Below are positions 15,438-33,329 of a stretch of DNA of 33,329 nucleotides, in pieces. The stretch spans positions 1 to 33,329 of the forward strand of contig CANRIG010000033.1 of assembly GCA_947630595.1 (NCBI GenBank), written 5' to 3'. The notes under the pieces were generated by a model. The model was not told where the DNA came from. It saw nothing but the letters and a program-made list of their open reading frames with translations, and ran no database searches. Numbering within the stretch: the first letter of the stretch is position 1; each line of letters starts with the position of its first letter. The stretch comes from an uncultured Lachnospiraceae bacterium (GTDB lineage Bacteria; Bacillota; Clostridia; Lachnospirales; Lachnospiraceae). The position numbers and the translations under genes were made by a program.

Positions 15438-15462
15438 AAGCTGACGCGGAATAAGAGAGTTT

Positions 15463-15492
15463 GGAGCTGCCGCTGTGATATTCGGCAGCTCC
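15463..15492 (+). terminator. Intercistronic hairpin between binding protein and permease genes
   Basis: GGAGCTGCCG (15463-15472) and CGGCAGCTCC (15483-15492) form a perfect 10-bp stem with a 10-nt loop, followed by ACTTTATT. It is likely a partial terminator or a 3' mRNA stabiliser that keeps the binding protein more abundant than the permeases. Confidence 0.65.
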
Positions 15493-15535
15493 ACTTTATT
15501 CATCTGGCTTTAAGACAAAGGAGGGAAATAAGAAT

Positions 15536-16453: not shown

Positions 16454-16467
16454 GGGAGGGCAGATGT

Positions 16468-17331: not shown

Positions 17332-17340
17332 AGGTGTGCT

Positions 17341-18168: not shown

Positions 18169-18181
18169 ACAGGAGGAGAGA

Positions 18182-19195: not shown

Positions 19196-19221
19196 ATGAT
19201 TTTATAGTGAAAAATAAGAAA

Positions 19222-19287
19222 GCTGCCATAAAGCGGGTCATTTAGACTTAGTCCCAGATGATACCGGCCTTGTGGCAGCGTTGTTTT
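19222..19287 (+). terminator. Terminator between convergent operon and LacI gene
   Basis: GCTGCCA (19222) and a downstream arm ending TGGCAGC (to 19279) pair with additional imperfect pairs inward around a loop of about 24 nt. TTGTTTT follows at 19281-19287. It ends the plus-strand operon just before the tail of the convergent LacI-type gene and may act on both strands. Confidence 0.65.
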
Positions 19288-19301
19288 GATACAGATTAAA
19301 T

Positions 19302-20327
19302 TCAGGCAGGTTTCTGCGTTGTCTTTCCGTCGTATAGTCTGACCGGAAGAAGCCTGATTTCGGCTGGGCGATCAGGCATATGAATGCGATCGAGCAGTAC
19401 CCGCACGGATTCTTTTGCAATACTGTAACTGTCGTCACAGGCAATGCTGGTCAGGCTTTCAAGGTAATTGATGGATCGGCATATATTGTCACAACCTATC
19501 AGAGAAACATCTTCCGGAATCCGGATGCCGGCATTTCGAAACACTTTCATGATCTGATATGCGACATTGTCGTTGAAAGCGAAAATAGCTTTATAGACCT
19601 CCGGCTGCAGCAGTTCGATCAAATTTCCGTTTTTATTTTCTATTTCCCAGCGCTCGCTGGAGATAGTATAAATATCGGTAGACGGAATTCCGGCCTTGGA
19701 CAGAACATCCCGGAATCCCTGTTCCCGGTCATGCTGGGCACTGTTGCTTTTCGGACCGGCGATATGAGCAAATTTTTTGTGACCAAGCCCCAGCAGATGT
19801 GAAGCAGCCAGACATCCTCCTGAGTAATCGTCGCACCGGACAGAATCGGTACAAACGCCCGGCAGCCAATGGCTGGCCAGCACGAAAGGAATGCGGCTGT
19901 TTTCAAGGTACTGTACTGCTTTCTGGTCGGTCCAATATGGAAAATAGATTATGCCATCCACAGACTGCGACAGCGCGATCTGGATCATATCAATTCCCCG
20001 TTCTTTTTCTGAAATACTGGTCTGCGTGCAGAAAATCATCATATCATAGCCGGAATGACGCAGTTCCAGCTCAATTTCGCTGATAATTGATGAAAAATAG
20101 GGGTTGTGTATATCATAAACAATGACTGCGATGATATGGCTGTGCCCGGAACGCAGGCTGGAGGCCTGTCGATTTTGGATATACCCCATTTTTTGAGCGA
20201 TTTGCTGTATCTTCTTGCAGGTTGTTTCCGGCAGCTCCTCTGAATTATGCAGCGCTTTGGAAACCGTATTGATTGAACAACCATATACTTTTGCAATATC
20301 TTTTAGCTTAACACGCGTTGATGTCAA
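19302..20327 (-). CDS. LacI/GalR-family transcriptional repressor (TTG start)
   Basis: Sugar-responsive repressor of 341 residues. The N-terminal helix-turn-helix and hinge are clear: VKLKDIAKVYGCSINTVSKA, then LPETTCKKIQQIAQKMGY with the hinge helix near residue 50. The core has the periplasmic-binding-protein fold (VIVYDIHNPYFSSII, VDGIIYFPYW, VRCDDYSGG, AHIAGPKSN, IFAFNDNVAYQIMK, ISLIGCDN-type VSLIGCDNI). The start is TTG 20327, supported by AGAGGTGA 7 bases upstream. Its gene faces the sugar operon 14130-19195 and most likely represses it through the palindrome at 13984-13995; it may also act on the later glycosidase cluster, though no matching site was seen there. The effector sugar is unknown. 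Confidence 0.93.
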   Translation of the reverse strand: MTSTRVKLKDIAKVYGCSINTVSKALHNSEELPETTCKKIQQIAQKMGYIQNRQASSLRSGHSHIIAVIVYDIHNPYFSSIISEIELELRHSGYDMMIFCTQTSISEKERGIDMIQIALSQSVDGIIYFPYWTDQKAVQYLENSRIPFVLASHWLPGVCTDSVRCDDYSGGCLAASHLLGLGHKKFAHIAGPKSNSAQHDREQGFRDVLSKAGIPSTDIYTISSERWEIENKNGNLIELLQPEVYKAIFAFNDNVAYQIMKVFRNAGIRIPEDVSLIGCDNICRSINYLESLTSIACDDSYSIAKESVRVLLDRIHMPDRPAEIRLLPVRLYDGKTTQKPA

Positions 20328-20374
20328 ATGGAAATCACCTCTCTGATGCAGAAAAACAAAAAATATTATGCCTT

Positions 20375-20403
20375 ATTATGACAAAATTTGTGGGTTCTGG
20401 CAA
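20375..20403 (-). promoter_or_regulatory. Promoter of the LacI-type gene
   Basis: On the minus strand, TTGCCA (20403-20398), a 17-bp spacer and CATAAT (20380-20375); each box matches consensus in 5 of 6 positions. The gene starts 48 bases downstream. Confidence 0.55.
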
Positions 20404-20566
20404 GACATTATCAAAATATTCACATATGAAAATTATAACAAAGCAGAATGGTAAATTGAGGTTGCAGAAACAAGGAAAGTGTGTCTTTTGACGAAGAAAA
20501 ATCGGAAGATCATTCGTAAATGTCAAGATCATGCGTGACTATCGGGAGAAAATTACGGCTATATCA

Positions 20567-20580
20567 GTGTAAGCGCTTAT
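20567..20580. promoter_or_regulatory. TAAGCGCTTA palindrome, cre-like or LacI-type site
   Basis: A 10-bp perfect palindrome with central CG at 20570-20579, preceded by TG at 20568. It resembles a CcpA cre box in its left half (TGTAAGCG) but misses the right-hand CA. It lies about 240 bp upstream of the LacI-type start. The rest of 20404-20618 shows no gene. Confidence 0.35.
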
Positions 20581-20618
20581 CAATGTCATATATCAGAGCG
20601 CGGTGTGTTAACAGTAAA

Positions 20619-20653
20619 GGTCTGCCGTACCGGATTTTCCGGTGCGGCAGACC
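20619..20653 (-). terminator. Terminator of the Rpn-family gene
   Basis: A 16-bp arm (20619-20634) pairs with 20638-20653, with a single wobble, around a 3-nt loop (core GGTCTGCCG/CGGCAGACC). Read on the minus strand it is followed by TTTACTG. It lies 15 bp after the stop codon of the broken nuclease gene. Confidence 0.8.
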
Positions 20654-20668
20654 CAAAACAGAACATGT

Positions 20669-21485
20669 TTATGATTTATTCAGCTGTTTCTCAAGCTCAG
20701 CAATGCGCTGTTCGAGATTTTGGATGACGTGGCGGTCTTTCTGGAGCTGCATTTTCTGGCTGTCAATCATTGCCTCCTGTTTATCAAGCTTATCCTGCAT
20801 CTCGTCGATCATGTACTGCACGGTGTTCCGGTCAAGAATACGCAGTTCTTCTGAAAACATTTCCATTACCCTCCCCACATTCCGGCAAAGACGGTATACG
20901 TCCTCATACATGGGCCTGAATTCCGGGTATGCCTCGATCAGACGGACGATGGTTTCCGGGTCGTCCCGGCTGAGGAACGCAAGCCATGCCTCGGTTTCGC
21001 TGCTGATATTTCTATTTTGGATGTTCTGTCCGAAAATGTCAAGCGCGATAAACAGATATTTCTGCAGAAGGTCAAGCCGGAGGCCGGTGTTGGAGCGCTG
21101 TTCGAAATAGTGCAGGTAATCGTTCTGAAAGTTCCGAAATTCTCCGGAGCTTTTCTCGATAAAGACAATCGTGTAGACCTCTTTGACCTCGAGATAACTG
21201 AACTTCTTTTTTTGCGCGTCGCGGATCCGTTTGTACTGGCGCAGCAGAAGGTCAGCTGAATAGCAGGCGCTCCGGAGTATATTCCGGATTCAGGATTTCC
21301 TTGAAAAAAGAATCGTACAAAAGCTTGACGCCCCGGACTCCGGTGCAGAAGTCAAGAAATTTCTCCCGTTGGTACGGCTGCCAGCTGTCGAACTGCTGCC
21401 TGAGTGCGGGCGTGGACTGAATCTGCTCCAGCAGGTCTTCTCTTTCGTGAATCATGGGAAAATACTGTTTCAGCTTGCTTGTCAT
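20669..21485 (-). pseudogene. Rpn-family PD-(D/E)XK nuclease/transposase, broken by internal deletion and frameshift
   Basis: Remnant of a recombination-promoting nuclease-type gene common in Lachnospiraceae. The N-terminal part starts at ATG 21485 (AGGAGG upstream) with MTSKLKQYFPMI, then FLDFCTGVRGVKLLYDSFFK and NPEYTPERL, and stops at 21252. The frame then shifts, and a second open stretch runs from about 21253 to 20669 beginning YSADLLLRQYKRIR, then VYTIVFIEKS, FIALDIF, RNTVQYMIDEMQ and a C-terminal coiled coil (LEQRIAELEKQL). Compared with intact members as I remember them, about 60-70 residues between PERL and YSADLL are missing, including the nuclease core with its metal-binding D and ExK/ExQ motif. 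The second part lacks a start codon until 20911. It keeps a perfect terminator, so decay is probably recent. Confidence 0.85.
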
Positions 21486-21550
21486 AATACCTCCTAAAAT
21501 TTTATAAGACAACATATATATAATATGTGTATTACAATAACATAATCAGA

Positions 21551-21670
21551 GGCTAAATGCAAGCAAACTTGTTCGACAAAATTCGACAGCGGCGAGGGCT
21601 GCCAACTTAAAGCTCTGCCATGACCGCATTTTTGGCTAAATGCAGAGAAAAAACAGAACCTCCGCATTTA
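21551..21670. repeat. Short direct and inverted repeats in the gap before the glycosidase cluster
   Basis: GGCTAAATGCA occurs at 21551-21561 and again at 21634-21644. TAAATGCAGAG (21637-21647) pairs with CTCCGCATTTA (21660-21670), 10 of 11 positions; GCATTT at 21626 could pair instead with the same AAATGC. These alternative hairpins lie upstream of the promoter at 21707, so they are not part of that leader. No gene is visible in 21516-21786. Confidence 0.5.
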
Positions 21671-21706
21671 AAAACTGTGAATTTGCATGACGGAAGCGAA
21701 AAAATG

Positions 21707-21735
21707 TTGACGAATTTTATGCAATATAATATAAT
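21707..21735 (+). promoter_or_regulatory. Promoter of the glycosidase/transport cluster
   Basis: TTGACG (21707-21712), 17-bp spacer, perfect TATAAT (21730-21735). Downstream, TTTATAAGA and TTTATAAGT are tandem 9-bp copies at about 21752-21769, just before the AAGGAGG of the first gene. No LacI-like palindrome matching that at 13984 is seen. Confidence 0.8.
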
Positions 21736-21786
21736 GTGAATGTATTTTAATTTTATAAGATTTATAAGTTTGAAAGGAGGAACAAA

Positions 21787-23049
21787 ATGAAAAAAGGTAT
21801 TGCATTAGGTCTGATTATGGGATTGTCGGTCGCGGCTGCGATGACGGTTTCCGCAGAGGAGCAGGTTACGCTGACCTTTGCCGAGACGATGACATCCCCT
21901 GAGAGGACGCTGGTTCTGGAACAGACGATTGCAGATTTTGAGGCGGAGCATCCGAATATTACGGTTGAGCTCGTATCCCCGCCGTACGAATCCGCTGAGA
22001 CAAAAGTGGCTTCCATGCTTGCGGCAGGGCAGGAAGTGGATATTGTCGAGATCCGCGACAACTCCGTAGGAGCCTGGATCAACAACGATTTCCTTTACAA
22101 GCTGGACGATATGGTTGCCGCGTGGGATGGAAAGGATGAGCTGGTAGATGCCGCGCTGCTGGCAGGTTCGTCGATCGGCGACGCTACCTACTTTGTTCCT
22201 CAGTATCTCTACGTGAAGGCTCTCATGGTGCGTACGGATGTCCTTGAGAAACTTGGCGTGACCGAGATGCCGAAGACCACGGATGAATTCCTGGAGATCT
22301 GCAAGCAGATCACGGATCCGGCTTCCGGCCAGTATGCGTTTGCACTCCGCGGCACCGGTTCCCCGTGCAAGACGGTGGACGTAATGTGGGCGACCGAGGT
22401 TCCGGGCATCAGCACGGACAACATCTACCTGACCGAGGACGGCACGTTCTTCATGGACACGGACGGCGCGCGCAAGGCGATGCAGGACTATTATGAGCTC
22501 TACACGGAGTGCTGCCCGGAGGATGCGGTCAACTGGGGCTACAACGAGCAGATCAACGGCTTTGTTTCCGGCACCACGCCGTTCCTGATTCAGGATCCCG
22601 ACGCGGTAGGCTCTGTCAGCGGTTCTCTTGAGCCGGATCAGTACACGGCAATCCCGATTCCGCTGGGCGCATCCGGGAAACGTTATCTGGACTACGGCTA
22701 TGCGGGACTTGCAGTGGCAGCGAACTCCGAGCATCCGGAGGAAGCGTTTGAGTTCATCAAGTACATGATTTCCGCAGAAGTGAACGCGACGATCTGCGAA
22801 TTCTACGGGGCGCTTCCGGTGAACCAGGGCGCTTACGAGGCATCCGAGATGTTTGAGCTTCCGGTTTACAAGGCATGGGCGGAAGAGATGTCGGATCCGG
22901 ATACCGTGTTTACGAAGTTCCCGCTGGAGGATCCGAGATTTGCAGAGTATTCCTCCACCGTGCATCTTGCGGCGATTCAGAGCTTCCTGCTCGGTCAGTC
23001 GGACGCGGAAGAAATGATCAAGACCTGCAAGGAGTACTGGGGCTACTAA
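21787..23049 (+). CDS. Family-1 ABC transporter substrate-binding protein (glycoside importer)
   Basis: Extracellular binding protein of 420 residues that opens the long glycosidase cluster. The signal peptide is 1 to about 23, with cleavage after VSA and no lipobox Cys. SBP_bac_1 features: VTLTFAETMTSPERTLVLEQ, IADFEAEHPNITVELVSPPY, KVASMLAAGQEVDIVEIRDN, then YGYAGLAVAANSEHPEEAFEFIKYM near 300. AAAGGAGG lies 7 bases before ATG. It shares fold but little sequence with the binding protein at 14130, so the two systems probably take different ligands. Two permeases follow after a 152-bp gap. Confidence 0.92.
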   Translation: MKKGIALGLIMGLSVAAAMTVSAEEQVTLTFAETMTSPERTLVLEQTIADFEAEHPNITVELVSPPYESAETKVASMLAAGQEVDIVEIRDNSVGAWINNDFLYKLDDMVAAWDGKDELVDAALLAGSSIGDATYFVPQYLYVKALMVRTDVLEKLGVTEMPKTTDEFLEICKQITDPASGQYAFALRGTGSPCKTVDVMWATEVPGISTDNIYLTEDGTFFMDTDGARKAMQDYYELYTECCPEDAVNWGYNEQINGFVSGTTPFLIQDPDAVGSVSGSLEPDQYTAIPIPLGASGKRYLDYGYAGLAVAANSEHPEEAFEFIKYMISAEVNATICEFYGALPVNQGAYEASEMFELPVYKAWAEEMSDPDTVFTKFPLEDPRFAEYSSTVHLAAIQSFLLGQSDAEEMIKTCKEYWGY

Positions 23050-23085
23050 ATCCAAAAGAGTTTATATGAAATAATCGATTACGAA

Positions 23086-23171
23086 AGCCGGAGTGCGGGG
23101 CCGCCGCAAGGGATCAGGAAGGGCATGTCACAATCCCGATGATTGCATTGCGACAGACCTGTCCTCCGGCT
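23086..23171 (+). other. Possible long-range hairpin between binding protein and permease genes
   Basis: AGCCGGAG (23086-23093) and CTCCGGCT (23164-23171) are perfect inverted copies about 70 nt apart. A TAATCGATTA palindrome is at 23072-23081. The position parallels the strong hairpin in the other sugar operon, but the fold is much weaker. No gene in 23050-23201. Confidence 0.3.
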
Positions 23172-23201
23172 CTTTGCGTTATGGTATGGAAAGGTGGAGC
23201 A

Positions 23202-24083
23202 ATGAAGAAAGACAAATGGTATCTTTTGATGATTCTGCCTGCAATTGCTTTTATCTGCTTCTTTATCTTTTACCCGCTGTTCAAGGGCGGGCTCATGGCG
23301 TTTCAGAACTACAGCCTGTTTAATCTGAAAGACATCCGGTTCATCGGGCTCGAAAACATCAAGGCCATTCTGTTCAGCAAGGCCGTCAGCTTCCGTCTGA
23401 TTCTTTTGAATACGGTGAAATGGCTGGTGCTTTCCCTGGTGTTCCAGTTCCTGCTGGGCTTTACGCTGGCCCTGCTTCTGAGAAAGCCTTTTAAGGGAAG
23501 AAGCGTGTATTGCGGGTTTGTATTTTATCCGTGGGCGCTGTGCGGATTTGCCATCGGCCTGATCTGGTCGTGGCTTTTCAACGGCCAGCTCGGCGTGATC
23601 AACGACCTTCTGATGAAGGTTGGCCTGATCAAGGAGAATATCGGCTGGCTGTCGAATCCGAAAATCGCCATGTACAGCGTGGTGATCGCAAATGTGTGGT
23701 ACGGGATTCCCTATTTCGGGATTATGCTCCTGGCCGCGCTGCAGTCGGTGCCGAACGAGCTGTACGAGTCGGCGACGATCGACGGAAGCAATAAAATTCA
23801 GCAGTTGTTTTATGTCACGATTCCCTACATAAAGCCTACGATTGTAAGCACAGTGCTGCTTCGCAGCATGTGGATTGTGAATTTCCCGGACCTGATTTAT
23901 GGCATGACGAACGGCGGCCCGGTGAACAGCACGCATATTCTCGGCACAATGATGATCAACAAGGTGTACAAGGAATTTGATTACGGCCAGGGCTCCGCCT
24001 ACGGCGTGATCATTATGGGACTTCTGCTGATTTACGCCGTAATTTATCTCAGAATTACGAGGTCTTCGGAGGGGGATATGTGA
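23202..24083 (+). CDS. MalF/UgpA-type sugar ABC permease
   Basis: Permease subunit of 293 residues with about six helices. It begins MKKDKWYLLMILPAIAFICF, the usual short N-terminus and first helix of this class. EAA loop NELYESATIDGSNKIQQLFY is near 190-210, followed by TNGGPVNSTHILGTMM, the typical periplasmic-side motif. I chose ATG 23202, after AGGTGGAG; the in-frame upstream extension begins in the intergenic hairpin. Its stop overlaps the next start (ATGTGATG), showing coupling. Forms the pore with the next protein. Confidence 0.92.
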   Translation: MKKDKWYLLMILPAIAFICFFIFYPLFKGGLMAFQNYSLFNLKDIRFIGLENIKAILFSKAVSFRLILLNTVKWLVLSLVFQFLLGFTLALLLRKPFKGRSVYCGFVFYPWALCGFAIGLIWSWLFNGQLGVINDLLMKVGLIKENIGWLSNPKIAMYSVVIANVWYGIPYFGIMLLAALQSVPNELYESATIDGSNKIQQLFYVTIPYIKPTIVSTVLLRSMWIVNFPDLIYGMTNGGPVNSTHILGTMMINKVYKEFDYGQGSAYGVIIMGLLLIYAVIYLRITRSSEGDM

Positions 24084-24928
24084 TGAGCAAAAGAAAAGTA
24101 AAAAGAACGGCGGGAACCATCGTGCGCGTTCTCATTCTGGCGGCGTTTTTGCTTTCGGCAATCCTTCCGCTGTTCTGGATTTTTATCACCAGCTTCAAAG
24201 GTGAGACCGAGCTGTACGCGTATCCTCTGGTTTACTGGCCGAAGCACCCGACGTTTGCGGCCTACAAGCGGCTGTTTTCCTACAGCAATTTCGGGCAGTA
24301 CTTTTTAAACTCCCTGACGGTTACGCTTTCTTCCTCGGCCGTGGCGATGGTGCTGGCGCTGATGGGAGGCTTTGCGCTCTCCCGGTTTAAGCGGAAAAAG
24401 ATGAAAGGGATCATCGAGCTTCTGATGTATTTCACGCAGACGATCCCCTCCTTTATGATCATGCTTCCGCTGTTTATGTTCTTTTCCAGGCTGAAAATGG
24501 TGGATAACCTTCCGGTGCTGGCGACGATCTATGTGGCGACCGTGGTCGCTTTCTGCACGCTGATGTCCAAGAGCTTTTTCGACCGCATACCGGAGGACCT
24601 GGAAGAAGCGGGCAAGATCGACGGCTGCAACCTGGCGCAGTCGATCATCCACGTCGTGCTGCCGCTGACCCTGCCGGGCATTGCCGCGATTTTCTGCTTT
24701 GCGTTTGTCAATATCTGGAACGAGCTTTTCATTGCGGTCATGATGATCAACAAAGCCACAAAATACACGGTTCCGGTAGCCCTGAACTCGTTCATATCGA
24801 AGGCGGGCGTGAGCTGGGATCTGATGAGCGCCGGCATTGTGGTTTCCCTGCTGCCTACCATGGTGGTATTCGGCGTCGGACAGAAATACATTGTGGCGGG
24901 ACTTACCGACGGCGGCGTCAAGGGCTAA
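24083..24928 (+). CDS. MalG/UgpE-type sugar ABC permease
   Basis: Permease subunit of 281 residues, about six helices. Features: LPLFWIFITSFKGETELY after the first helix, EAA loop EDLEEAGKIDGCNLAQSIIH at about 180-200, and the C-terminus GLTDGGVKG. The ATG at 24083 overlaps the previous stop codon by one base and has GGAGGGGG upstream within the previous gene. No ATPase gene is present in the cluster, so a shared MsmX-type ATPase is implied. The PLP-enzyme gene starts 33 bp downstream. Confidence 0.92.
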   Translation: MSKRKVKRTAGTIVRVLILAAFLLSAILPLFWIFITSFKGETELYAYPLVYWPKHPTFAAYKRLFSYSNFGQYFLNSLTVTLSSSAVAMVLALMGGFALSRFKRKKMKGIIELLMYFTQTIPSFMIMLPLFMFFSRLKMVDNLPVLATIYVATVVAFCTLMSKSFFDRIPEDLEEAGKIDGCNLAQSIIHVVLPLTLPGIAAIFCFAFVNIWNELFIAVMMINKATKYTVPVALNSFISKAGVSWDLMSAGIVVSLLPTMVVFGVGQKYIVAGLTDGGVKG

Positions 24929-24961
24929 CATACTTTATTATCGCGAAAAGGGGAAAACAGG

Positions 24962-26137
24962 ATGATACAGAATGCGGATTACGAGATGACAGAAATTCTC
25001 CATCATATGGGAGAGGATAATTTTCCGGAACACGCGGTAGCGCCTCCCATTTTTCAGAGCTCGATTTTCAGTTTTCAGACGTTTGAGGCGTTCCGGGAGG
25101 CGCTGGCCAATGAGGACGAGCATTATATTTATACCCGCGGCAACAATCCCACGGTCAATCTGTGCGAGGAGAAAATTGCCGCTTTGGAGCATGCGCAGAA
25201 AGCCAAGCTGGTATCCTCCGGCGTGGCGGCGATTTCCTGCGCGGCCATGGCGTTTTTGAAGCAGGGCGACCATGCCGTGTGCGTCAACAGCGCCTATGGC
25301 TGGGCCCGGTATCTGTTTCAGACTTATCTGAGCCGCTTCGGGATCGAGGTGACGTTTGTCGAGGGGACTCAGATCGAGGAATTTGAAAACGCGGTCCGGC
25401 CGAACACAAAGCTGATCTATCTGGAGAGCCCGGCTTCCTTTACGTTTACGCTCCAGCCGCTGCGCCAGGTGGCCGCGCTGGCAAAGTCCCGGGGCATCCG
25501 GACGATCATTGACAATACCTGGGCGACGCCGGTCTTCCAGAATCCGCTGGACATGGGAATTGACCTGGTGGTGCATTCGGTCAGCAAATACCTCGGAGGC
25601 AATTCCGACGTGATCGCCGGCGTGATCTGCGGCAGCAAAGAGGATATCGTCCGCATTTTCCGGACGGAATTCCTGCCCATGGGCCCGGTCATCGATCCGT
25701 TTGCGGCCTGGCTGATTCTGCGGAATCTGCGCACCCTCCATGTGAGAATGCCGATACACTACCGGAACGCGCTTGAGCTGGCCCGTTTCCTGGAGGACAG
25801 GGACGATGTGGAGAGCGTGAGCTACCCGCTGCTGCCTTCGTTTCCGCAGTACGAGCTGGCCAGAGAGCAGTTCCGGGGCGGAAGCGGCCTGTTCTCGTTC
25901 CGGCTTCGGACGAGGGACCCGGAGAAGATCAAGAAGATGACGAACCGCATCCGTTTCTTCAAACTGGCGGTAAGCTGGGGAGGCTACGAGAGCCTGTTCG
26001 ACCCGTCCCTGGTGCATTGCCGGACCGACCAGGAGGTTCCGGAGGACAAGATTTCCCTGATCCGGGTGCACGCGGGTCTGGAGGATGTGGAACTGCTGAA
26101 ACGAGATCTGACGCAGGCGCTTGACGCAATAAGGTGA
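24962..26137 (+). CDS. Cys/Met-metabolism family PLP enzyme (cystathionine gamma-lyase/synthase-like)
   Basis: Pyridoxal-phosphate enzyme of 391 residues, fold type I, transsulfuration family. PLP Lys209 is in VVHSVSKYLGGNSD, the ring-contact Asp184 in TIIDNTWATP, and the phosphate-binding Tyr57/Arg59 in YIYTRGNNPT, contributed by the neighbouring subunit. Family members eliminate or replace a group on the beta or gamma carbon of an amino acid (cystathionine, methionine, O-acyl-homoserine). The usual Tyr-Gly loop is AYGWAR with Trp where methionine gamma-lyase has Cys. It has no signal peptide. It lies between sugar permeases and glycosidases, four bases before the GH36 gene, which is unusual. 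A role in splitting an O- or S-linked sugar-amino acid conjugate is attractive but is inference. Confidence 0.88.
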   Translation: MIQNADYEMTEILHHMGEDNFPEHAVAPPIFQSSIFSFQTFEAFREALANEDEHYIYTRGNNPTVNLCEEKIAALEHAQKAKLVSSGVAAISCAAMAFLKQGDHAVCVNSAYGWARYLFQTYLSRFGIEVTFVEGTQIEEFENAVRPNTKLIYLESPASFTFTLQPLRQVAALAKSRGIRTIIDNTWATPVFQNPLDMGIDLVVHSVSKYLGGNSDVIAGVICGSKEDIVRIFRTEFLPMGPVIDPFAAWLILRNLRTLHVRMPIHYRNALELARFLEDRDDVESVSYPLLPSFPQYELAREQFRGGSGLFSFRLRTRDPEKIKKMTNRIRFFKLAVSWGGYESLFDPSLVHCRTDQEVPEDKISLIRVHAGLEDVELLKRDLTQALDAIR

Positions 26138-26140
26138 GAC

Positions 26141-28405
26141 ATGATCAGCTGCAGGAATAAGGTTTTCAAATTAGATACGCCAAACACAAGTTATCTGTTC
26201 CGAATTTCGGAGACAGGACATGCGGAACATCTCTATTATGGACCCGGCATCGTCCATACCGGAGATGTTTCTTCCTATATTATTTACAGTGACCTGCGGA
26301 TGCCGACGCTCGTCAATTACTCCGACGGGGCGCCGCGGAGATATCCGGCGATAATGCCCCTGGAGCTGTCCTCCATGGGCAAGGGCGATCTGCGCGAGCC
26401 GGTCTTTCAGGGCGAGTGGGGTGCGCAGGGCAATACGGTATTTGACTTTACATTTGAATCCTGGCGCGTCGAGCAGGGAGATTCCCTGCGCACGCAGCTG
26501 CCGGCGGCGCGCAAAGAGGGCGCCAAGACGCTTGTGCTCGTGCTGCGGGATCTGCCCACCCGCGTCTGCGCGGAGCTGCGGTACACGGTCTATCCGGACA
26601 GCGACGCCATCGTCCGGAGAACGGTGATCCGAAATGACAGCGGGGAGCCGCTCACCATCCGCGCGCTGTACTCTTTGCAGCTGGATCTGGACGACACCGG
26701 GTTTGAGCTGCTGACGTTTGACGGCGCATGGAGCCGGGAACGCCATCTGCACCGGACAAGGCTCGGCGGGGGCTTCGGCGGCGTGCAGTCTGTGGCCGGG
26801 GTGTCCTCCGCGGAGCACAATCCGCTGTTCCTTCTGAAAAGCGGGGAGGAATGCTTCCTTTTCAATCTGCTCTGGTCGGGGGACCACCGGGAGCTGGCGG
26901 AGGTTTCTCCGTACGGCATGGTGCGGGTGCTCACCGGTCTGAATCCGGCCTCCTTTTCCTGGCGGCTGGAGCCCGGCGCGTGCTTTGCCTCGCCGGAGGC
27001 GGTCATGGCTTACTCTGCGGAGGGTGAGAACGCAGTCTCGCAGACGATGCATGATTTTGTGAGAAGGTATATCAGCCCGCCGGTCTGGAGAGACCGGGAG
27101 CGGCCTGTGCTGCTCAACAGCTGGGAGGGGATGGGCTTTGCGCTCTCGGAGGAAAAGGTAAAAAGGCAGGCGGCCTGCGCGCGAGACCTTGGTATAGAGC
27201 TGTTTGTCATCGACGACGGCTGGTTCCGCGAAAACGACTGCGCGCAGGGCAGCATGGGAGACTGGCAGGCGGCGGAGAAAAGGTTTCCGCGGGGGCTGCG
27301 GCCGGTCTGCGACTATCTTCACAGCCTGGGCATGCTGGCGGGCATCTGGATTGAGCCGGAGATGATCAGCCCGGATTCCGGGCTCTGCCGGGAACACCCG
27401 GATTTTCTGGTGCAGTGTCCCGGACGGGCGCCGAGCCCGGGGCGCGATCAGTATCTTCTCGACATGTCCAGAGCGGAAGTGACGGACATCCTCTTTGAAA
27501 AACTGGAGAGGCTGATCGCGGAGAACGGCTTTGATTATATAAAATGGGACATGAACCGCTACCTTGCGGATGATTATTCGGCGGCTGTCTGGATACCGGA
27601 GTTTCGCTTCCGCTGGATACTCGGCCTGTACCGGCTGCTGGACCGGCTGACGCGGCGGTTTCCTGAGCTGCTCATTGAGGGCTGCGCTTCCGGCGGCGGC
27701 CGGTTTGATCTGGGGATGCTGTGCTATGTCAGCCAGTTCTGGGGAAGCGACAACACGGACGCGACCGAACGGGTCGATATCTTTACCGGCACCAGCTACG
27801 GCTATCCCCAGTGCGCGTTCGGGGCCCACGTGTCCAGAATCCCCAACGGGATCACGGGCCGGGTCTACGACTACGAGACCGCCTTTCACGTGAATGCGTT
27901 CGGCGCGTTCGGCTATGAGCTGGATGTGACAAAGCTCACGGATTTTGAACGGGACATGTTCCGGGAGCAGATTGCGTTTTACAAACGATACCGAAAGGTA
28001 TTTCAGTTCGGGACGTTCACGAGGGCGGCCGGCGCAGACGGCGGCAACGCCGTGATCTGGACGTGCGGGAGCCAGGAGGACGGCGTCATCCTTGCGCTGT
28101 ATCTGGAGAGGCGCATGGGCATCGCCCAGAGCGCGGTCCGCAGGCTGGTCGTGCCCGCCTGCAGGCCGGAGAAGCTGTACCGGGTGACGGCCCGGAGGCA
28201 GTGGGTGACCAATGCGCTCATGTGCGGGAAACGCGGCGGCCCTCACAGAAGCGAAGCGTTCTCCTGCGTGGTTTCCGGCGCTTTGCTGAGATGCCGGGGC
28301 ATGACGCTGATGCCGGTGTTTCAGGGTACGGATTACCCGGAGAATGCGGCGTATCTGGGAGATTACGGTTCGCGCCTGTTTGTGATCGAGGAGTGCGGCG
28401 CGTGA
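26141..28405 (+). CDS. GH36 alpha-galactosidase (or alpha-N-acetylgalactosaminidase)
   Basis: Retaining alpha-galactosidase of 754 residues, the common length for full GH36 enzymes. An N-terminal beta-sandwich (1 to about 320) precedes the TIM barrel, which holds the nucleophile Asp470 in YIKWDMNR and the acid/base Asp537 in WGSDNTDATERV, 67 residues apart as usual. Supporting motifs are NSWEGMGF, FVIDDGWF, GIWIEPEMI, EGCASGGGRFD and YETAFHVNAFGAFGYELD. A C-terminal beta domain follows. No signal peptide, so it acts on imported alpha-galactosides. The start is ATG 26141 with AAGGTGAG 3-5 bases upstream, only three bases past the PLP gene stop. GH36 also contains N-acetylgalactosaminidases and the motifs seen do not exclude that. 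Confidence 0.93.
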   Translation: MISCRNKVFKLDTPNTSYLFRISETGHAEHLYYGPGIVHTGDVSSYIIYSDLRMPTLVNYSDGAPRRYPAIMPLELSSMGKGDLREPVFQGEWGAQGNTVFDFTFESWRVEQGDSLRTQLPAARKEGAKTLVLVLRDLPTRVCAELRYTVYPDSDAIVRRTVIRNDSGEPLTIRALYSLQLDLDDTGFELLTFDGAWSRERHLHRTRLGGGFGGVQSVAGVSSAEHNPLFLLKSGEECFLFNLLWSGDHRELAEVSPYGMVRVLTGLNPASFSWRLEPGACFASPEAVMAYSAEGENAVSQTMHDFVRRYISPPVWRDRERPVLLNSWEGMGFALSEEKVKRQAACARDLGIELFVIDDGWFRENDCAQGSMGDWQAAEKRFPRGLRPVCDYLHSLGMLAGIWIEPEMISPDSGLCREHPDFLVQCPGRAPSPGRDQYLLDMSRAEVTDILFEKLERLIAENGFDYIKWDMNRYLADDYSAAVWIPEFRFRWILGLYRLLDRLTRRFPELLIEGCASGGGRFDLGMLCYVSQFWGSDNTDATERVDIFTGTSYGYPQCAFGAHVSRIPNGITGRVYDYETAFHVNAFGAFGYELDVTKLTDFERDMFREQIAFYKRYRKVFQFGTFTRAAGADGGNAVIWTCGSQEDGVILALYLERRMGIAQSAVRRLVVPACRPEKLYRVTARRQWVTNALMCGKRGGPHRSEAFSCVVSGALLRCRGMTLMPVFQGTDYPENAAYLGDYGSRLFVIEECGA

Positions 28406-28439
28406 CATTGCGGATATTGACTTGATATGGAGGATACTT

Positions 28440-30344
28440 ATGAAGATTACCGGAAACGGCAAAACAGAACTGGATCTGGATGAGCAGAGCCTCCGGCTGA
28501 CGGTTACGGCGGGCACAGAGCGCTGGGAGTGGGCGCCGGATTACAGCCCCTGGCTGCTGCTGAACGGGGAAAAAGTGGAATTCCGGGCCGCGAAATCCGC
28601 AGAGCACTGTGAGATACATAACGGGGTGGGCGACGGGATTCTCAGCCGGTATGCCGGCTTTACGGCCGGAGGCCGGGAGGAGGCGCTGGCCTTTGCCACT
28701 TTTGTGTGGACAGAGCGTTCCAGCGGCGACGTCTTTTTTGAATGGTATCCGCTGTCGGAGGAGCGGCGCGGCGCAGTCGCGGGAGTGTACTGGCCGGGGC
28801 CGATGGCCTTTGAGCAGCGCCGGCGCGACTGGTACACGCTGGTCACGGAGCGCCAGGGCCTGCTGATTCCCAACGACTGGGGAACCGCCTGTCAGAAACT
28901 CTGTTTTGACGGGATGTTCCTGACTGCGGGCTCCTATATGCCCTGGTTTTCCCAGATCCGCGAGGGCAGCGGCTACATCGCGGTTGCGGTCACGCCGTGG
29001 AACGCCAAAGTGGTCGTGGACCATCCGGTGAACGGGCCTTACACGCACGCGGGCGTCTGCTGGGAGCCAAGCCTGGGCCGCATGGATTACCGGCGTATTC
29101 TGCGTTACAGCTTCCGGCGGGACTGCGATTACAATACCATGTGCAAGATTTACCGGCGGTACGCGTTCGAAAACAGGCTGGCCGCGACGCTGGAGGAAAA
29201 AGCGGCGCGGCTTCCGGCGGTGAATGATCTGATCGGCGCGGCCTTTGTCCACGCGGGAATCAAGACCAGCGTGCATCCGCTGTCCGATTTTTTTGATCCG
29301 CTGGCGCCGGAAAAAAACAATTCCCTGACGCCGTTTTCGACCCGCAGGGAACAGATGGAACAGTACCGCCTCCTGGGGGTGGAGAAGGTTTACCTGCACC
29401 TGGACGGCTGGGCGCAGCCGGGGTATGACAACTGCCATCCCGACTACATCCCGGCCTGTGAGGAGGCCGGCGGCTGGCAGGGCATGAGGGAGCTGGCCGA
29501 TGCGATGCACCGCTGCGGCTATCTGTTCGGTATTCACGACCAGTACCGGGACTACTATAAAAATGCGCCCTCTTACTCGGAGGATTACGCGTGCCGGCTG
29601 CCGGACGGCAGCATTCCCTCGCACGCACGCTGGGCGGGCGGCCCGCAGGCTTATCTGTGCGCGACGCAGGCGCCGTACTATGTGCGCCGGAATTTTCAGG
29701 AGATCCGGGAGCACGGAGTTCATCTGGACGCCGCCTATCTGGACGTGTTTACCTGCAACGAGGGGGACGAGTGCGCCAACCCGGCGCATGTGATGTCCCG
29801 GCGGGACTGCTATGAGAGCCGGCGGAAATGCTTTGATTATCTGACTGCGGAGGGCATTCTTCCGAGCTCGGAGGAGGCGTCGGAATGGGCGCTGAACAGC
29901 CTTGTTTTCTGCCACTTTGCGCCGTATCAGTTTATGATGGAGAGGCCGGGGGTGGAGCGGAGAGGGCTGGCGGTGCCGCTGTTTAATCTGGTGTACCACG
30001 ACTGCCTGATCATCCCCTGGATGATGGAACACCCTGACAACGCCGAGGATTACATGCTTTACGCGCTGCTCAACGGCGGCGCGCCCTATCTGGAGCGAAA
30101 CGGGGCCTATCTGAACATCGACGGAAGCTATGCCGGCGGAGAGACCATGGATGCCGCGACGAGAATCCGGCGCTGCGCGGAAGTCAGCGCCCTGCAGAAG
30201 CGGGTGGCGAAGCAGGAGATGCTGCGGCACACATTTGTGGACGGAGACGAGGCGGTGCAGCAGGCGGAGTATGCGGACGGCACCACGGTCACCATTTGCC
30301 TGCGGGACGGGAGCTACCGGATCAGGTATCCGCAGGACATCTGA
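28440..30344 (+). CDS. Putative GH129/GH101-like intracellular alpha-N-acetylgalactosaminidase
   Basis: A 634-residue soluble protein: an N-terminal beta-sandwich (about 1-270) and a TIM barrel with GVEKVYLHLDGWAQPGYD, GIHDQYRDYY, AAYLDVFTCNEGDECANP and ILPSSEEASEW. Asp435 (YLDVF) and Glu478 (first E of SSEEASEW) are placed as nucleophile and acid/base of a retaining alpha-glycosidase. From memory these positions, spacing and length match the bifidobacterial GH129 enzyme NagBb, which removes alpha-GalNAc from mucin-type glycopeptides inside the cell. No signal peptide. I chose ATG 28440, 6 bases after GGAGG, over an upstream TTG. Coupling to GH36 suggests stepwise cleavage of imported alpha-Gal/alpha-GalNAc substrates. 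The fold-level call is firmer than the substrate; DUF5696-type proteins are the alternative label. Confidence 0.7.
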   Translation: MKITGNGKTELDLDEQSLRLTVTAGTERWEWAPDYSPWLLLNGEKVEFRAAKSAEHCEIHNGVGDGILSRYAGFTAGGREEALAFATFVWTERSSGDVFFEWYPLSEERRGAVAGVYWPGPMAFEQRRRDWYTLVTERQGLLIPNDWGTACQKLCFDGMFLTAGSYMPWFSQIREGSGYIAVAVTPWNAKVVVDHPVNGPYTHAGVCWEPSLGRMDYRRILRYSFRRDCDYNTMCKIYRRYAFENRLAATLEEKAARLPAVNDLIGAAFVHAGIKTSVHPLSDFFDPLAPEKNNSLTPFSTRREQMEQYRLLGVEKVYLHLDGWAQPGYDNCHPDYIPACEEAGGWQGMRELADAMHRCGYLFGIHDQYRDYYKNAPSYSEDYACRLPDGSIPSHARWAGGPQAYLCATQAPYYVRRNFQEIREHGVHLDAAYLDVFTCNEGDECANPAHVMSRRDCYESRRKCFDYLTAEGILPSSEEASEWALNSLVFCHFAPYQFMMERPGVERRGLAVPLFNLVYHDCLIIPWMMEHPDNAEDYMLYALLNGGAPYLERNGAYLNIDGSYAGGETMDAATRIRRCAEVSALQKRVAKQEMLRHTFVDGDEAVQQAEYADGTTVTICLRDGSYRIRYPQDI

Positions 30345-30431
30345 AAACGGTTTTTTCGGGGATATACAATCGGATTGCCGCGGGCTCTCCGGCATATTTT
30401 GAGGGCCTGCGGACGGAAAGGCGAGGAGTAT

Positions 30432-31454
30432 ATGAAAGTTGGAATGATTGGCGTGGGCGGCATGGGGGCCACCCACAACAGCGCGGTAAAGGCGCTGTCG
30501 GAGAAGATGGATGTGGAAGTGACGGCGATTGCGGACATGCTGCCGAAGTATCGGGAGGAAGCGGCGAAGCTGTGGCCGCAGGCGCATATTTATACAGACG
30601 GCTTTGCATTGCTGCGGGAGGAGGTGCTCGATTGTGTTCACATCTGCGTTCCCAGCTACCTGCACACGGAGCTGGCGGTCGCCGCGATGGAAAAAGGGAT
30701 TCACGTGCTGATTGAAAAGCCGGTGGCCCTGAATGAGGAAGACTGCCGCAGGCTGCTGGAGACAAAGGCGCGCACGGGCGTGCGGGCGATGGTCGGCCAG
30801 GTGGTGCGGTTTTTCCCGGAATATGAGCTGCTGAAGACGGCGTATGAGAGCGGGAAATACGGCAGGCTGAAAAGCCTGGTCATGCAGAGGCTGAGTCAGG
30901 ACGTGCTCTGGGGCTATGAGAACTGGTTCCAGGAGGAGGGAAAGAGCGGCTCCGTGGTGCTGGACCTTCACATCCACGACGCCGATTTTGTCCGCTATAT
31001 GCTGGGCGAACCGCAGGGAATCCAGGTGCAGGCGACCGCGTACGAAAACGGCATGATCAACCAGATTCTCACCATTTATGACTATCCGGGCTGCTTTGTC
31101 AGCGCGGAGGCCGTGTGGGACGTGACGCCGGCGCTGCCGTTCCAGCCGTCGTACCGCGCGTATTTCGAGGATGCGACGATCACGTTCCACGGCAGGGAAA
31201 ATCCGTCCGTGAAAATCTGGAAAAAGGACGGCGCCGTGGAGGAACCGCAGCTGCGGCAGGAGGAAGCGCTGGCGCAGTGCAGCTCCGGCATCAACATCCA
31301 GTCGCTGGGTTCCTATTATACGGAAATCGCTTATTTTTATGACTGCCTGGCGAAAGGGCTGGAGCCGGAGAAGGCCTCCCTGGAGGAAGGGGTGGCTTCG
31401 GTGCGGCTGATGCTGCGGGAGCTGGAGGCGGCGCACCGGGCGCTGCGCGGCTGA
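30432..31454 (+). CDS. Gfo/Idh/MocA-family NAD(P)-dependent sugar oxidoreductase
   Basis: Cytoplasmic dehydrogenase of 340 residues. The N-terminal Rossmann domain has GVGGMGATH at 7-15; the catalytic Lys96 is in IEKPVAL; the substrate domain has VVLDLHIHDADFVRYMLGEP with Asp178 and His182. Members oxidise a ring hydroxyl of sugars, inositols or intact glycosides; some do so as the first step of C-3-keto glycoside cleavage, and GH109 alpha-GalNAc-hydrolases share this fold. ATG 30432 has GGCGAGGAG just upstream. Separated by 87 bp from the GH129-like gene and followed at 133 bp by the TIM-barrel gene, with no obvious terminator between them. The pair with the TIM-barrel enzyme suggests an oxidise-then-eliminate or isomerise route. 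Confidence 0.9.
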   Translation: MKVGMIGVGGMGATHNSAVKALSEKMDVEVTAIADMLPKYREEAAKLWPQAHIYTDGFALLREEVLDCVHICVPSYLHTELAVAAMEKGIHVLIEKPVALNEEDCRRLLETKARTGVRAMVGQVVRFFPEYELLKTAYESGKYGRLKSLVMQRLSQDVLWGYENWFQEEGKSGSVVLDLHIHDADFVRYMLGEPQGIQVQATAYENGMINQILTIYDYPGCFVSAEAVWDVTPALPFQPSYRAYFEDATITFHGRENPSVKIWKKDGAVEEPQLRQEEALAQCSSGINIQSLGSYYTEIAYFYDCLAKGLEPEKASLEEGVASVRLMLRELEAAHRALRG

Positions 31455-31587
31455 CCGGAGCGTTGTCTTGAAAGCCGCAGATAAGCCGCAGATGGAAAGA
31501 AAACTGCGCGCCCCGGATTTTATTGCCGGCAGTTTTTCTGCAGCGCGCACGCACCGGAAATTCAAAATAATATGGGAGGAAGTTCAC

Positions 31588-32406
31588 ATGCGTGTTGGAG
31601 TTATGGTAGATTTGGTCCGGGAACGGACCGTGGAGGAACAGTTCGCTCAGCTGAGAGAGCTGGGGATGGACAACTGTCAGCTTGTGTGCTGGGACAGGAG
31701 CCTGCTGACCCGGGAAACGGCGGCGCGGGTCAACGAGGCGGTCAGCCGCTATGAAACGGAGATTTCCGCGTTCTGGTGCGGCTGGGAAGGCCCGCGGGAC
31801 TGGAATTTTTACGAGGGCCAGCTGACCCTGGGCCTGGTGCCGGAGGCGTACCGGTTCCGGCGCATGGAAATGCTGATGGAGGGCTCCGATTTCGCTTCCT
31901 GGATCCATGTGACGGACCTGGTGACCCACGTGGGCTATATGCCGGAGAACCCGTACGACCCGCATTATCCGGCGGTGATTGCCTGCCTGAAAAAAATTGC
32001 GCAGAAATGCGCGCAGAACGGACAGTATTTTCTGTTTGAGACCGGGCAGGAGACCCCGATTACCCTGCTGCGCGCGATACAGGACGTGGGCGCGGACAAC
32101 CTCGGCATCAACCTCGACCCGGCGAACCTGGTGATGTACGGCAAGGCCAATCCGGTGGACGCCCTGGACACATTCGGCACGTACGTGCGCGGCGTGCACG
32201 GCAAGGACGGCCTTTACCCGACGGATGGCCGCGAACTGGGGCCGGAGGTTCCGCTGGGGGAGGGCAGGGTCGATTACCCGCGCCTCATCGCCCGCCTGCG
32301 GGAGCTGGGCTACGACGGGGCGATCACCATCGAACGGGAAATCTCCGGAGAGGAGCAGGTCCGGGACATCATCCGGGCGAAGGAACTGCTCGACCGGCTG
32401 ATTTGA
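31588..32406 (+). CDS. Xylose-isomerase-like TIM-barrel sugar isomerase/epimerase or 3-keto-glycoside lyase
   Basis: Metal-dependent TIM-barrel protein of 272 residues (AP endonuclease 2 / sugar phosphate isomerase-epimerase family). Four probable metal ligands lie at strand ends: Glu151 in FETGQET, Asp177 in NLDPANL, His204 in GVHGKDG and Glu249 in TIEREISG. The family includes keto-sugar epimerases and hydratases or lyases that act on 3-keto-glycosides made by Gfo/Idh/MocA partners, as in C-deglycosidase systems. No signal peptide. ATG 31588 is chosen because GGGAGG is 9-10 bases upstream; the frame extends 40 codons further but into non-coding-looking sequence. Last gene of the cluster, followed by a possible terminator. 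The exact reaction cannot be told from the sequence. Confidence 0.88.
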   Translation: MRVGVMVDLVRERTVEEQFAQLRELGMDNCQLVCWDRSLLTRETAARVNEAVSRYETEISAFWCGWEGPRDWNFYEGQLTLGLVPEAYRFRRMEMLMEGSDFASWIHVTDLVTHVGYMPENPYDPHYPAVIACLKKIAQKCAQNGQYFLFETGQETPITLLRAIQDVGADNLGINLDPANLVMYGKANPVDALDTFGTYVRGVHGKDGLYPTDGRELGPEVPLGEGRVDYPRLIARLRELGYDGAITIEREISGEEQVRDIIRAKELLDRLI

Positions 32407-32518
32407 CCAAAGACGCGGCGGAGGTTCCGGCAGTGCGGCGCGCGGGCTTTGCGTGCACAAAAAATGCCGCGGCAGACCGGTTTTTGGCGAGACAAAACGG
32501 TACCGGCTCAAAACGCTG

Positions 32519-32548
32519 CAACGGCATGACAGGCAGCTGTTGTCTTTT
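32519..32548 (+). terminator. Possible terminator at the end of the glycosidase cluster
   Basis: CAACGGC (32519-32525) pairs with GCTGTTG (32536-32542, one wobble) around a 10-nt loop, followed by TCTTTT. It sits 112 bp past the last gene and touches the stop codon of the convergent aminotransferase gene. The rest of 32407-32518 shows no gene. Confidence 0.45.
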
Positions 32549-33233
32549 AATAATTGATATCCGTGTCGTAATGCTCCGTGTATGCTTCCTGCAGCTTCCG
32601 AAGCGTCGCTTCATTCCTGCCGCCGACCGGCTTTCCGTCCAGCTCGACCGCCCGGATGCACAAGACTCCGTCCTTCAGCATCAGGATATTGCTGTGGGCG
32701 CACTCCGTCACCCGCTCGCCGCGGTGCAGAACCGTCTCCTGGCAGCCAACTTCCATGCAGCGCTGGGTGGCGATTACGCTGGGAATCAGGTTCAGCGTCT
32801 TGATGTTGCAGTGAAAAAACCGCGTGTCCTCCATAGAAATCAGCCGGAAAGTCCGGTCAAAGGGAATCAGCTCGCAGGGCATTGTGAAGATCATCAGGTT
32901 CGGCTTCACGTCCGCCGGCAGGAAATGATGCTGCCTTAAGCCTGTACCGCGGGAACACTGCCAGTAGAGCATTCCGTGATCCAGCTCATTTGCGTCGATG
33001 CATTGCTGCAGGGTGGCGATCAGCGCCTCCCGCGGCATCTCAAACGGAATCTCCAGCATCCGGCAGCTGTTGTAAAAACGGCCTATGTGATCTTTTACTG
33101 CGAAAATGTGATTGTGAGCGAACGTGGTCGCGTCGTAGCAGCCGTCTCCGAAATAAACGGCCCGGCCCAGCATCGGGATTTTCATTTCCTCCAGCGGCCC
33201 GATTTCGCCGTTGTAATATCCTATGTATTTCAT
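32547..33233 (-). CDS. Class IV aminotransferase (D-amino-acid/branched-chain type) with internal deletion
   Basis: PLP-dependent class IV aminotransferase or lyase, 228 residues. Present: the N-terminal domain with YFGDGCYDATTF and the Arg of GRFYNSCRML, PLP Lys145 in NIKTLNLIP and Glu177 in VTECAHSN, the same positions as in Bacillus D-amino-acid aminotransferase from memory. After SNILMLKDG (to residue 189) the sequence jumps to LCIRAVELDGKPVGG. Members of 280-290 residues carry about 55-60 residues there, including the LPGI(T/A)R loop that grips the PLP phosphate. The reading frame is kept, so a shortened protein could still be made, but normal activity is unlikely. The ATG has GGAGG upstream. 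It is convergent with the glycosidase cluster, so a direct link is doubtful. The 96 bases beyond its start hold no further gene. Confidence 0.8.
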   Translation of the reverse strand: MKYIGYYNGEIGPLEEMKIPMLGRAVYFGDGCYDATTFAHNHIFAVKDHIGRFYNSCRMLEIPFEMPREALIATLQQCIDANELDHGMLYWQCSRGTGLRQHHFLPADVKPNLMIFTMPCELIPFDRTFRLISMEDTRFFHCNIKTLNLIPSVIATQRCMEVGCQETVLHRGERVTECAHSNILMLKDGVLCIRAVELDGKPVGGRNEATLRKLQEAYTEHYDTDINY

Positions 33234-33329
33234 TTCGCATCCTCCGTTTCTTTGTGGGTAGTGTCAAAAGCTACCTGTTTTTTTGTTGCAAAATATAATA
33301 AAAACCTTGATTTTAAGGGAAATCTGCAA

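Follow-up and report, generated by a model that had tools for sequence, protein, structure and literature searches.

The alpha-N-acetylgalactosaminidase NagBb is a cytosolic enzyme without a signal peptide, which splits GalNAc-Ser/Thr (serine or threonine carrying N-acetylgalactosamine) after uptake, in the words of the cited passage, "by an unknown transporter" (PMC7232152). A passage of a second review attributes the import of GalNAc-Ser/Thr to an "as yet non-identified transporter" (PMC6109692). In Bacillus subtilis, the type I importer FrlONM takes up fructosyl-valine, according to the excerpt cited (PMC12632257), and the polysaccharide utilization locus (PUL) BT4240-4250 of Bacteroides thetaiotaomicron is described, in the cited section, as handling Tn-type glycopeptides and GalNAc (PMC11992087). 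Here we analyse a cluster of eight genes from an uncultured Lachnospiraceae bacterium that encodes a sugar-type importer, a pyridoxal 5'-phosphate (PLP) enzyme, two glycosidases, an oxidoreductase, and a TIM-barrel protein. The cluster lies in the window, by which we mean the whole 33,329-nucleotide stretch analysed, contig CANRIG010000033.1 (C33) of a 3.31 Mb genome in 151 contigs. Judged from sequence, it is best explained as belonging to a type of locus in Bacillota that links a CUT1-type importer with a PLP enzyme of the Cys/Met metabolism family and combines the two with exchangeable cytoplasmic glycosidases. We found no description of this gene set or of the wider locus type in the open-licence literature.

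The importer and its PLP partner

The eight genes from 21787 to 32406 lie on the plus strand and are all open frames with families assigned by Pfam, in agreement with an earlier note on this DNA:

21787..23049, plus strand: ATP-binding cassette (ABC) solute-binding protein (SBP; SBP_bac_1, CUT1 type) with a signal peptide, Pfam 126.7 bits
23202 (about)..24083, plus strand: ABC permease A (PermA), Pfam BPD_transp_1
24080..24928, plus strand: ABC permease B (PermB), Pfam BPD_transp_1, four-base overlap with PermA
24962..26137, plus strand: PLP enzyme of the Cys/Met metabolism family, in the clade of the Ala/Glu racemase PDB 9iz5, Pfam 374.9 bits
26141..28405, plus strand: alpha-galactosidase-like enzyme of glycoside hydrolase (GH) family 36, Pfam 398.7 bits, without signal peptide
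28440..30344, plus strand: GH129 alpha-N-acetylgalactosaminidase, similar to NagBb, without signal peptide
30432..31454, plus strand: Gfo/Idh/MocA oxidoreductase, assigned by Pfam
31588..32406, plus strand: AP_endonuc_2/xylose-isomerase-like TIM barrel, Pfam 96.6 bits

Homologues of the PLP enzyme were searched for in 397 genomes of the family, 391 of the class, 398 of the phylum, and 29 of the class of genome G1119, which overlap in part. The PLP loci counted (n = 41) are the window and 40 further loci, one of which (L084) was included through the permease search and not the PLP search; five lower-scoring PLP places (L130-L134), with the transporter in 0/5, lie outside this count. The family search listed 57 PLP places, and the transporter is present in 11 of the 29 for which wide flanks were examined. 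A permease was taken to be of this type at an identity of at least 35%, and the importer to be linked when PermA and PermB lie on the same strand within 6 kb of the PLP gene. Neighbouring genes were named by tblastn against the query set (E 1e-6), with Pfam or NCBIfam scans for some, so that other glycosidases may be missed. Contig ends cut L083, L088, L112, L114 (which begins at a contig start), and L160, and the loci are not independent, because L107/L108, L119/L125, and L003/L004 are pairs of close relatives.

By this definition, the importer accompanies the PLP gene in 19 of the 41 loci. It stands beside nine of the 18 best PLP places (E 1e-103 or better; 1e-105 in the class search), namely the window, L005, L061, L082, L087, L089, L090, L107, and L108. 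The same link is formed with other PLP clades in the window's family (L113, L114, L116, L117, L118, L120, L123, L126, and L129). L129 has the permeases and the PLP gene with no SBP match by the queries, and the gene order within the module differs in L116 and L117. The reverse search, with PermA of the window type in 368 genomes of the family, returned 24 places. A PLP partner is present at 11 of them, all among the 12 highest-scoring, and at none of the 12 weaker ones, one of which ends at a contig end. The importer and the PLP enzyme are thus the constant unit of these loci, and the PLP gene characterises one subfamily of transporters. Because its tie to the importer type spans many genera and extends to loci in which no glycosidase was found, a passenger role is improbable.

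L005 (Lachnospiraceae RUG10675, from a rumen genome series) has a stretch identical to that of G069, and is the one other locus in which SBP, PermA, PermB, and PLP genes stand beside a GH129 gene. Its identities to the window are 78% for the SBP, 84% for PermA, 79% for PermB, and 69% for the PLP enzyme; its GH129 is 56% identical and encoded upstream. The SBP of L083 is also 78% identical to that of the window, and PermA identities are 77% in L083 and 62% in L082. The cluster appears to be accessory in its genus, as the same-genus genome G152 contains no GH129 gene and no PLP gene at E 1e-60. A gene-order search around G415 returned one genome.

The importer fits the pattern of the CUT1 class: an SBP_bac_1 protein and two MalF/MalG-like permeases, with the ATPase encoded elsewhere. 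A single UgpC-type ATPase scores over the cut-off (G000:C127:4169-5263, 503.6 bits) and may serve the cluster importer. By reading, the SBPs of the window (21787-21860), L005, L083, L107, and L108 have a signal peptide without a lipobox cysteine, unlike that of L061; the lack of this cysteine is unusual for a monoderm ABC importer.

The PLP enzyme and its metabolic context

By sequence relationship, the PLP enzyme clearly belongs to the clade of PDB 9iz5, an L-alanine/L-glutamate racemase of archaeal origin. It scores 374 bits against 9iz5 and 272 bits against the best methionine gamma-lyase, and in trees the enzymes of the window, L005, L082, L107, and L108 group with 9iz5 (support 0.994). 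The enzymes of this clade have Y-(G/S)-W-A where gamma-lyase has Y-G-C, and share the AVSWG motif. A methionine gamma-lyase function was rejected, because the cysteine of the YGC motif is tryptophan in the window enzyme and the tree places the enzyme elsewhere. The top NCBIfam model is NF041088 (bifunctional L-Ala/L-Glu racemase), at 592.8 bits for the window and 600.7 bits for L005; both values are below the cut-off of 629, so that by score the window enzyme falls outside the racemase model.

The position in the 9iz5 clade and the top rank of NF041088 favour a reading in which the PLP enzyme acts as a racemase and Ala, Glu, or a D-amino acid forms part of the imported compound, for instance a fragment of cell wall or teichoic acid with alpha-Gal or alpha-GalNAc. 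An Asp/Glu racemase and a PAS_6 regulator encoded near the module in L082, and a short D-amino-acid-transaminase-like gene beside the window cluster, are consistent with it, as is the description of MalY, another PLP enzyme, as a racemase in the title of the cited paper (PMC5845896). We nevertheless consider this reading distinctly unlikely, given the score under the model cut-off, the lack of the YGWA/YSWA motif in the other PLP clades of the same kind of locus, and the presence in L061 of a threonine ammonia-lyase and an acetate kinase.

The genes of L061 share one strand and are no more than 131 bases apart, in the order threonine ammonia-lyase (TIGR01127, 537.7 bits, cut-off 378.75), RidA, GntR/FCD regulator, URO-D, SBP, PermA, PermB, URO-D, PLP enzyme, acetate/propionate kinase (541.9 bits, cut-off 293.4), and GHL6. 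According to the cited abstract, RidA pre-empts damage by enamines from threonine dehydratase (PMC4433059). RidA is encoded in four importer loci: in L061, where it lies beyond the 6 kb limit, and in L082, L107, and L108, which share the gene order PAS_6/HTH_22 regulator, RidA, SBP, PermA, PermB, PLP. L124, a PLP locus without the importer, has a RidA gene on the other strand. The RidA and threonine ammonia-lyase context suggests that elimination of the Ser/Thr type takes place alongside the PLP enzyme or is catalysed by it directly.

If elimination is direct, the PLP enzyme itself would be the cleaving enzyme, a beta-lyase that removes the intact sugar from O-glycosyl-Ser/Thr, with the enamine cleared by RidA. 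Glycosidases would then be optional, which would explain the loci without any. Enzymes of the Cys/Met family perform beta-elimination, RidA recurs in the four importer loci and near the PLP gene of L124, and in eight importer-PLP loci the queries used found no glycosidase in the module. An O-glycoside is, however, an unusual leaving group for the family, and a racemase is the closest relative of known structure. Direct cleavage would also make GH129 and GH36 superfluous in the window, and the RidA gene of L061 adjoins that of threonine ammonia-lyase, which may be its partner instead. We give the beta-lyase function a slim chance. Slightly slimmer is that of a broader proposal, in which such a lyase would cut O-glycosyl-Ser/Thr by beta-elimination, setting the whole glycan free with no need of a glycosidase, and the pair of importer and PLP enzyme would represent a widespread Bacillota system for glycosyl amino acid uptake with interchangeable glycosidases.

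Exchangeable glycosidases and the layout of the cluster

The glycosidases encoded within 6 kb of the PLP gene differ between the 41 loci: GH36 is present in six, GH106 in six, GHL6 in six (mostly on the other strand), and GH129 in two. Pfam confirms GH106 in L116, L118, L123, and L129, and GHL6 in L118. The earlier note had GH36 and GH129 trim one substrate in succession; the locus type does not require this, as other loci with the PLP module hold GH36 alone, GH106 or GHL6, or no glycosidase that was found.

GH36 genes occur near the PLP gene in the window, L005, L084, L119, L125, and L128, and in five of the six directly downstream of it. The 22 GH36 genes in ten genomes (~46 Mb) give a chance expectation of ~0.24 in the 0.504 Mb surveyed, for genomes that were hand-picked, several of them because GH36 adjoins PLP, and with GH36 loci that are not all independent. 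The GH36 enzymes of L005, L119, L125, and L128 share 56-88% identity with one another but only 36-37% with the window enzyme; the fragment at the contig end of L084 was left out of this comparison. At least two GH36 lineages therefore joined the PLP module. The GH36 of L005, 37% identical to that of the window, is closer to other enzymes (820 bits to 8k1a). The window GH36 contains the GH36 N-terminal and melibiase domains and keeps the KWDMNR and SDNTD (SDxTD) motifs, whose residues we take to have the roles known for GH36; Pfam finds no match to the GH36 C-terminal domain in it. It scores 558 bits against PDB 3mi6, and its best solved relatives are alpha-galactosidases. The pocket motif EGCASGGGRFD also resembles theirs, in a comparison that included no alpha-GalNAc-specific GH36, and the window enzyme is likely to be specific for alpha-Gal, with alpha-GalNAc as the less probable alternative.

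These motifs would suit an ordinary alpha-galactoside or mucin-oligosaccharide operon, in which free oligosaccharides are imported and trimmed by GH36 and GH129, and the PLP gene is present as a passenger whose product serves the housekeeping metabolism of sulfur amino acids. CUT1 importers and GH36 enzymes commonly serve raffinose-type sugars, and the closest solved relatives of the window SBP by sequence include maltose- and acarbose-binding proteins. We consider such an operon unlikely, because the PLP gene is tied to the importer (11 of the 12 best permease matches and 19 of the 41 PLP loci) even where no glycosidase was found, and the founding enzyme of GH129 acts, in the cited description, on GalNAc-Ser/Thr.

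The 28440 protein is by sequence a genuine GH129 enzyme, as the earlier note had suspected. It aligns with residues 7-627 of the 634 of NagBb from Bifidobacterium bifidum (PDB 5wzn), the founding GH129 enzyme, at 728 bits. The Pfam GH129 model (PF11308) scores 23.4 bits, under its cut-off of 25.6, and a search with this profile gave no match in the window's own genome and 14 controls. Residues W398, D435, and E478, as well as the His/Asp residues at which the mutant chain 5wzq differs, are conserved without exception in 21/21 aligned GH129 sequences (the window and 20 of 24 further loci, with L004, L017, L021, and L023 left out). We take D435 and E478 to be the catalytic residues. W398 is the stacking platform residue of NagBb, as stated in the cited text (PMC8106489).

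The 24 further GH129 loci were taken from species genomes, the window's own record not being among them, and some of their stretches are short. The earlier note had called for a search for the eight-gene order in other genomes; we ran it, and the order occurs in 0/24. The stretches examined contain no match to the other cluster genes of the window in 17 of the 24 loci. Including the window, sugar-type permeases of more than one transporter type are found near GH129 in seven of 25 loci (window, L001, L003, L004, L005, L013, and L018). Two modules are conserved instead of the whole, and by gene order and similarity the window cluster is a mosaic of them: SBP-PermA-PermB-PLP(-GH36), which L005 also contains, and GH129-Gfo-TIM, which recurs in L001 and L002. 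The identities to the window in L001 and L002 are 68% and 65% for the Gfo/Idh/MocA protein and 78-79% for the TIM barrel, and the GH129 enzymes of the window, L001, L002, and L005 form one clade (support 0.998).

The TIM barrel scores 140 bits against PDB 3tva, a protein named by its domain only. Seven PDB relatives of the 30432 protein reach E 1e-15 or better, under the names DgpA, dehydrogenase, oxidoreductase, or PmdC, and its Pfam matches include no GH109 domain. The possibility that it is a GH109 alpha-N-acetylgalactosaminidase was set aside because its relatives are dehydrogenases, with no direct comparison to a GH109 enzyme. Inositol catabolism (from galactinol), suggested by an IolG-like score of the Gfo protein, was rejected, as the TIM barrel is only weakly similar to IolE and the Gfo-TIM pair follows GH129 without a GH36 match in L001 and L002.

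Other GH129 genes lie near genes for GalNAc use, among them nagA in L024. L018 (5416-7541 and 9971-15159) has an NahK-like N-acetylhexosamine 1-kinase (331 bits to 4wh1) and a nucleotidyltransferase encoded on the strand opposite to GH129 and an ABC importer. L010 (6782-11860) has alpha-L-fucosidase, GH20, and GH129 in one run, which fits the stepwise trimming of mucin cores. In L002 (2962-13922), the GH129-Gfo-TIM genes directly follow genes that, named from their sequence starts, read like a glycine cleavage/lipoate operon.

The importer type is exchanged in L119 and L125, where an oligopeptide-type importer (SBP_bac_5 and OppC_N; in L119 also oligo_HPY) takes the place of the sugar-type importer beside PLP and GH36. 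This suggests peptide or amino-acid conjugates as cargo, although such importers can carry other compounds. The genes of L119 (2233-12490) and L125 (2831-12987) stand in a row, with the importer, a GntR/FCD-like regulator, PLP, and GH36 preceded by a Gfo/Idh/MocA gene (442 residues in L125). In L113, L116, L118, L123, L126, and L129, the permeases and PLP enzyme are encoded beside GH106, an alpha-L-rhamnosidase family, and GHL6, GntR/FCD, and URO-D-like genes are often present as well.

The cluster is preceded by a promoter, and a hairpin is predicted within it:

21707..21735, plus strand: sigma-70 type promoter TTGACG-N17-TATAAT, 11/12 consensus positions, ~50 bases before the SBP start codon
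23086..23171, plus strand: hairpin between the SBP and PermA genes, predicted by RNA folding

The single strong promoter claimed by the earlier note is borne out as the best of 19 promoter-like sites in 19200-33329 (shuffled sequences: mean 8.4, standard deviation 3.0), and the enzymes lack signal peptides as it had stated (0/5 N-termini, judged by inspection). The intergenic gaps are, in gene order, 146, -4, 33, 3, 34, 87, and 133 bases, with PermA starting 6 bases before 23202. The longer gaps follow the SBP gene (146) and precede the Gfo (87) and TIM-barrel (133) genes. The RNA of 23046-23196 folds at -47.4 kcal/mol (z -2.0; 4/200 shuffles equally good). A hairpin after the SBP gene is frequent where the binding protein is made in excess.

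Directly upstream is a second sugar-type ABC cluster (14052-20327) with genes for an SBP, two permeases, an aldo-keto-reductase-like protein (by reading), and a GH43/GH130-like protein, and a convergent LacI regulator. This regulator (19302-20327) was only tentatively set aside as the regulator of the cluster, as it adjoins the upstream one. Two overlapping open stretches in different frames on the minus strand (20669-21545) read like a broken PD-(D/E)XK nuclease or transposase-type gene. The D-amino-acid-transaminase-like gene on the minus strand (32547-33233) is convergent with the cluster and encodes 228 residues; the protein appears short or degraded, since the match stops at profile position 195 of 276.

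Proposed pathway and comparison with known systems

We tentatively favour the uptake of glycosyl amino acids, with alpha-GalNAc-Ser/Thr and/or alpha-Gal-Ser as the substrate, cytoplasmic deglycosylation, and processing by the PLP enzyme, at a confidence somewhat short of even. The SBP would capture small alpha-linked glycosyl amino acids, either alpha-GalNAc-Ser/Thr (the Tn antigen of mucin) and/or alpha-Gal-Ser (from plant extensin), or very short peptides, which would enter the cell intact. In the cytoplasm, GH129 would release GalNAc and GH36 galactose. The PLP enzyme would then act on the released Ser/Thr; deamination to pyruvate or 2-oxobutyrate is its most likely reaction, and racemisation the alternative. 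The Gfo and TIM-barrel proteins may handle the sugar that GH129 releases. Alpha-galactosyl serine occurs in plant extensins, according to the cited abstract (PMC4908140), so that a GH36 beside the PLP enzyme could serve Gal-Ser. The imported O-glycosyl amino acid proposed in the earlier note survives in part: the lack of signal peptides in GH129 and GH36 and their place behind a sugar-type importer agree with it, and the reading fits the conserved link of this importer to an amino-acid PLP enzyme, but the gene set is not conserved as a whole.

Several observations weigh against the glycosyl amino acid pathway. GH106 and GHL6 each lie within 6 kb of the PLP gene in six loci, and a common rhamnosyl amino acid is not known to us. 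In eight of the 19 importer-PLP loci (L082, L087, L089, L090, L107, L108, L114, and L117), the queries detected no glycosidase within the module; a divergent GH42 in L107 and a GH38 in L117 lie ~8 kb away. These eight loci and the GH106 partners indicate a module broader than alpha-Gal and alpha-GalNAc. SBPs other than those of L005 and L083 are 27-41% identical to that of the window, so that their ligands may differ. The window-type importer is missing from nine of the 18 best PLP places, among them L088, which a contig end truncates, and L063, where a different ABC importer is encoded. The solved member of the PLP clade is an Ala/Glu racemase and not a Ser/Thr lyase, and URO-D-like proteins, which a glycosyl amino acid leaves unexplained, recur in several loci. 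GH129 stands beside the PLP module in only 2/41 loci, and among 12 genomes searched for it at E 1e-20 it was found in G069 and in none of the other 11, for which reason GH129 was rejected as the ancestral partner of the module.

If the proposed pathway is true, the wider pattern of a fixed importer-PLP pair with changing glycosidases would mean that sugar-decorated amino acids serve gut Bacillota as a joint source of carbon and nitrogen, taken from mucus and perhaps from the wall proteins of plants. Compared with the Ala/Glu racemase (9iz5/NF041088), the window PLP enzyme is of the same clade and has the Y-(G/S)-W-A and AVSWG motifs; unlike it, it scores below the model cut-off and is encoded in a transport and glycosidase operon. 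The PUL BT4240-4250 shares the handling of Tn-type glycopeptides and GalNAc, but employs a periplasmic GH109 and a GalNAc kinase, and the cited section mentions no PLP enzyme (PMC11992087). The frlBONMD system of B. subtilis is similar in its type I sugar-class ABC importer and in that, as described in the excerpt, a sugar-amino acid conjugate is imported whole and split inside, which is an analogy and not a sequence comparison. It differs in that the frl kinase and deglycase act on an N-linked Amadori product, whereas the window encodes O-glycosidases and a PLP enzyme. The NagBb route, as outlined in the cited passages, is the one with a GH129 enzyme that likewise lacks a signal peptide, has the same active-site residues, and is expected to act on a small alpha-GalNAc-amino acid. 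The passages cited from the reviews assign no importer to it in Bifidobacterium, whereas the window operon holds an importer, an amino-acid enzyme, GH36, Gfo, and a TIM barrel. The window importer is thus a candidate for the GalNAc-Ser/Thr importer that those passages call unknown, and the locus ties it to an enzyme that could use the amino-acid half of the substrate.

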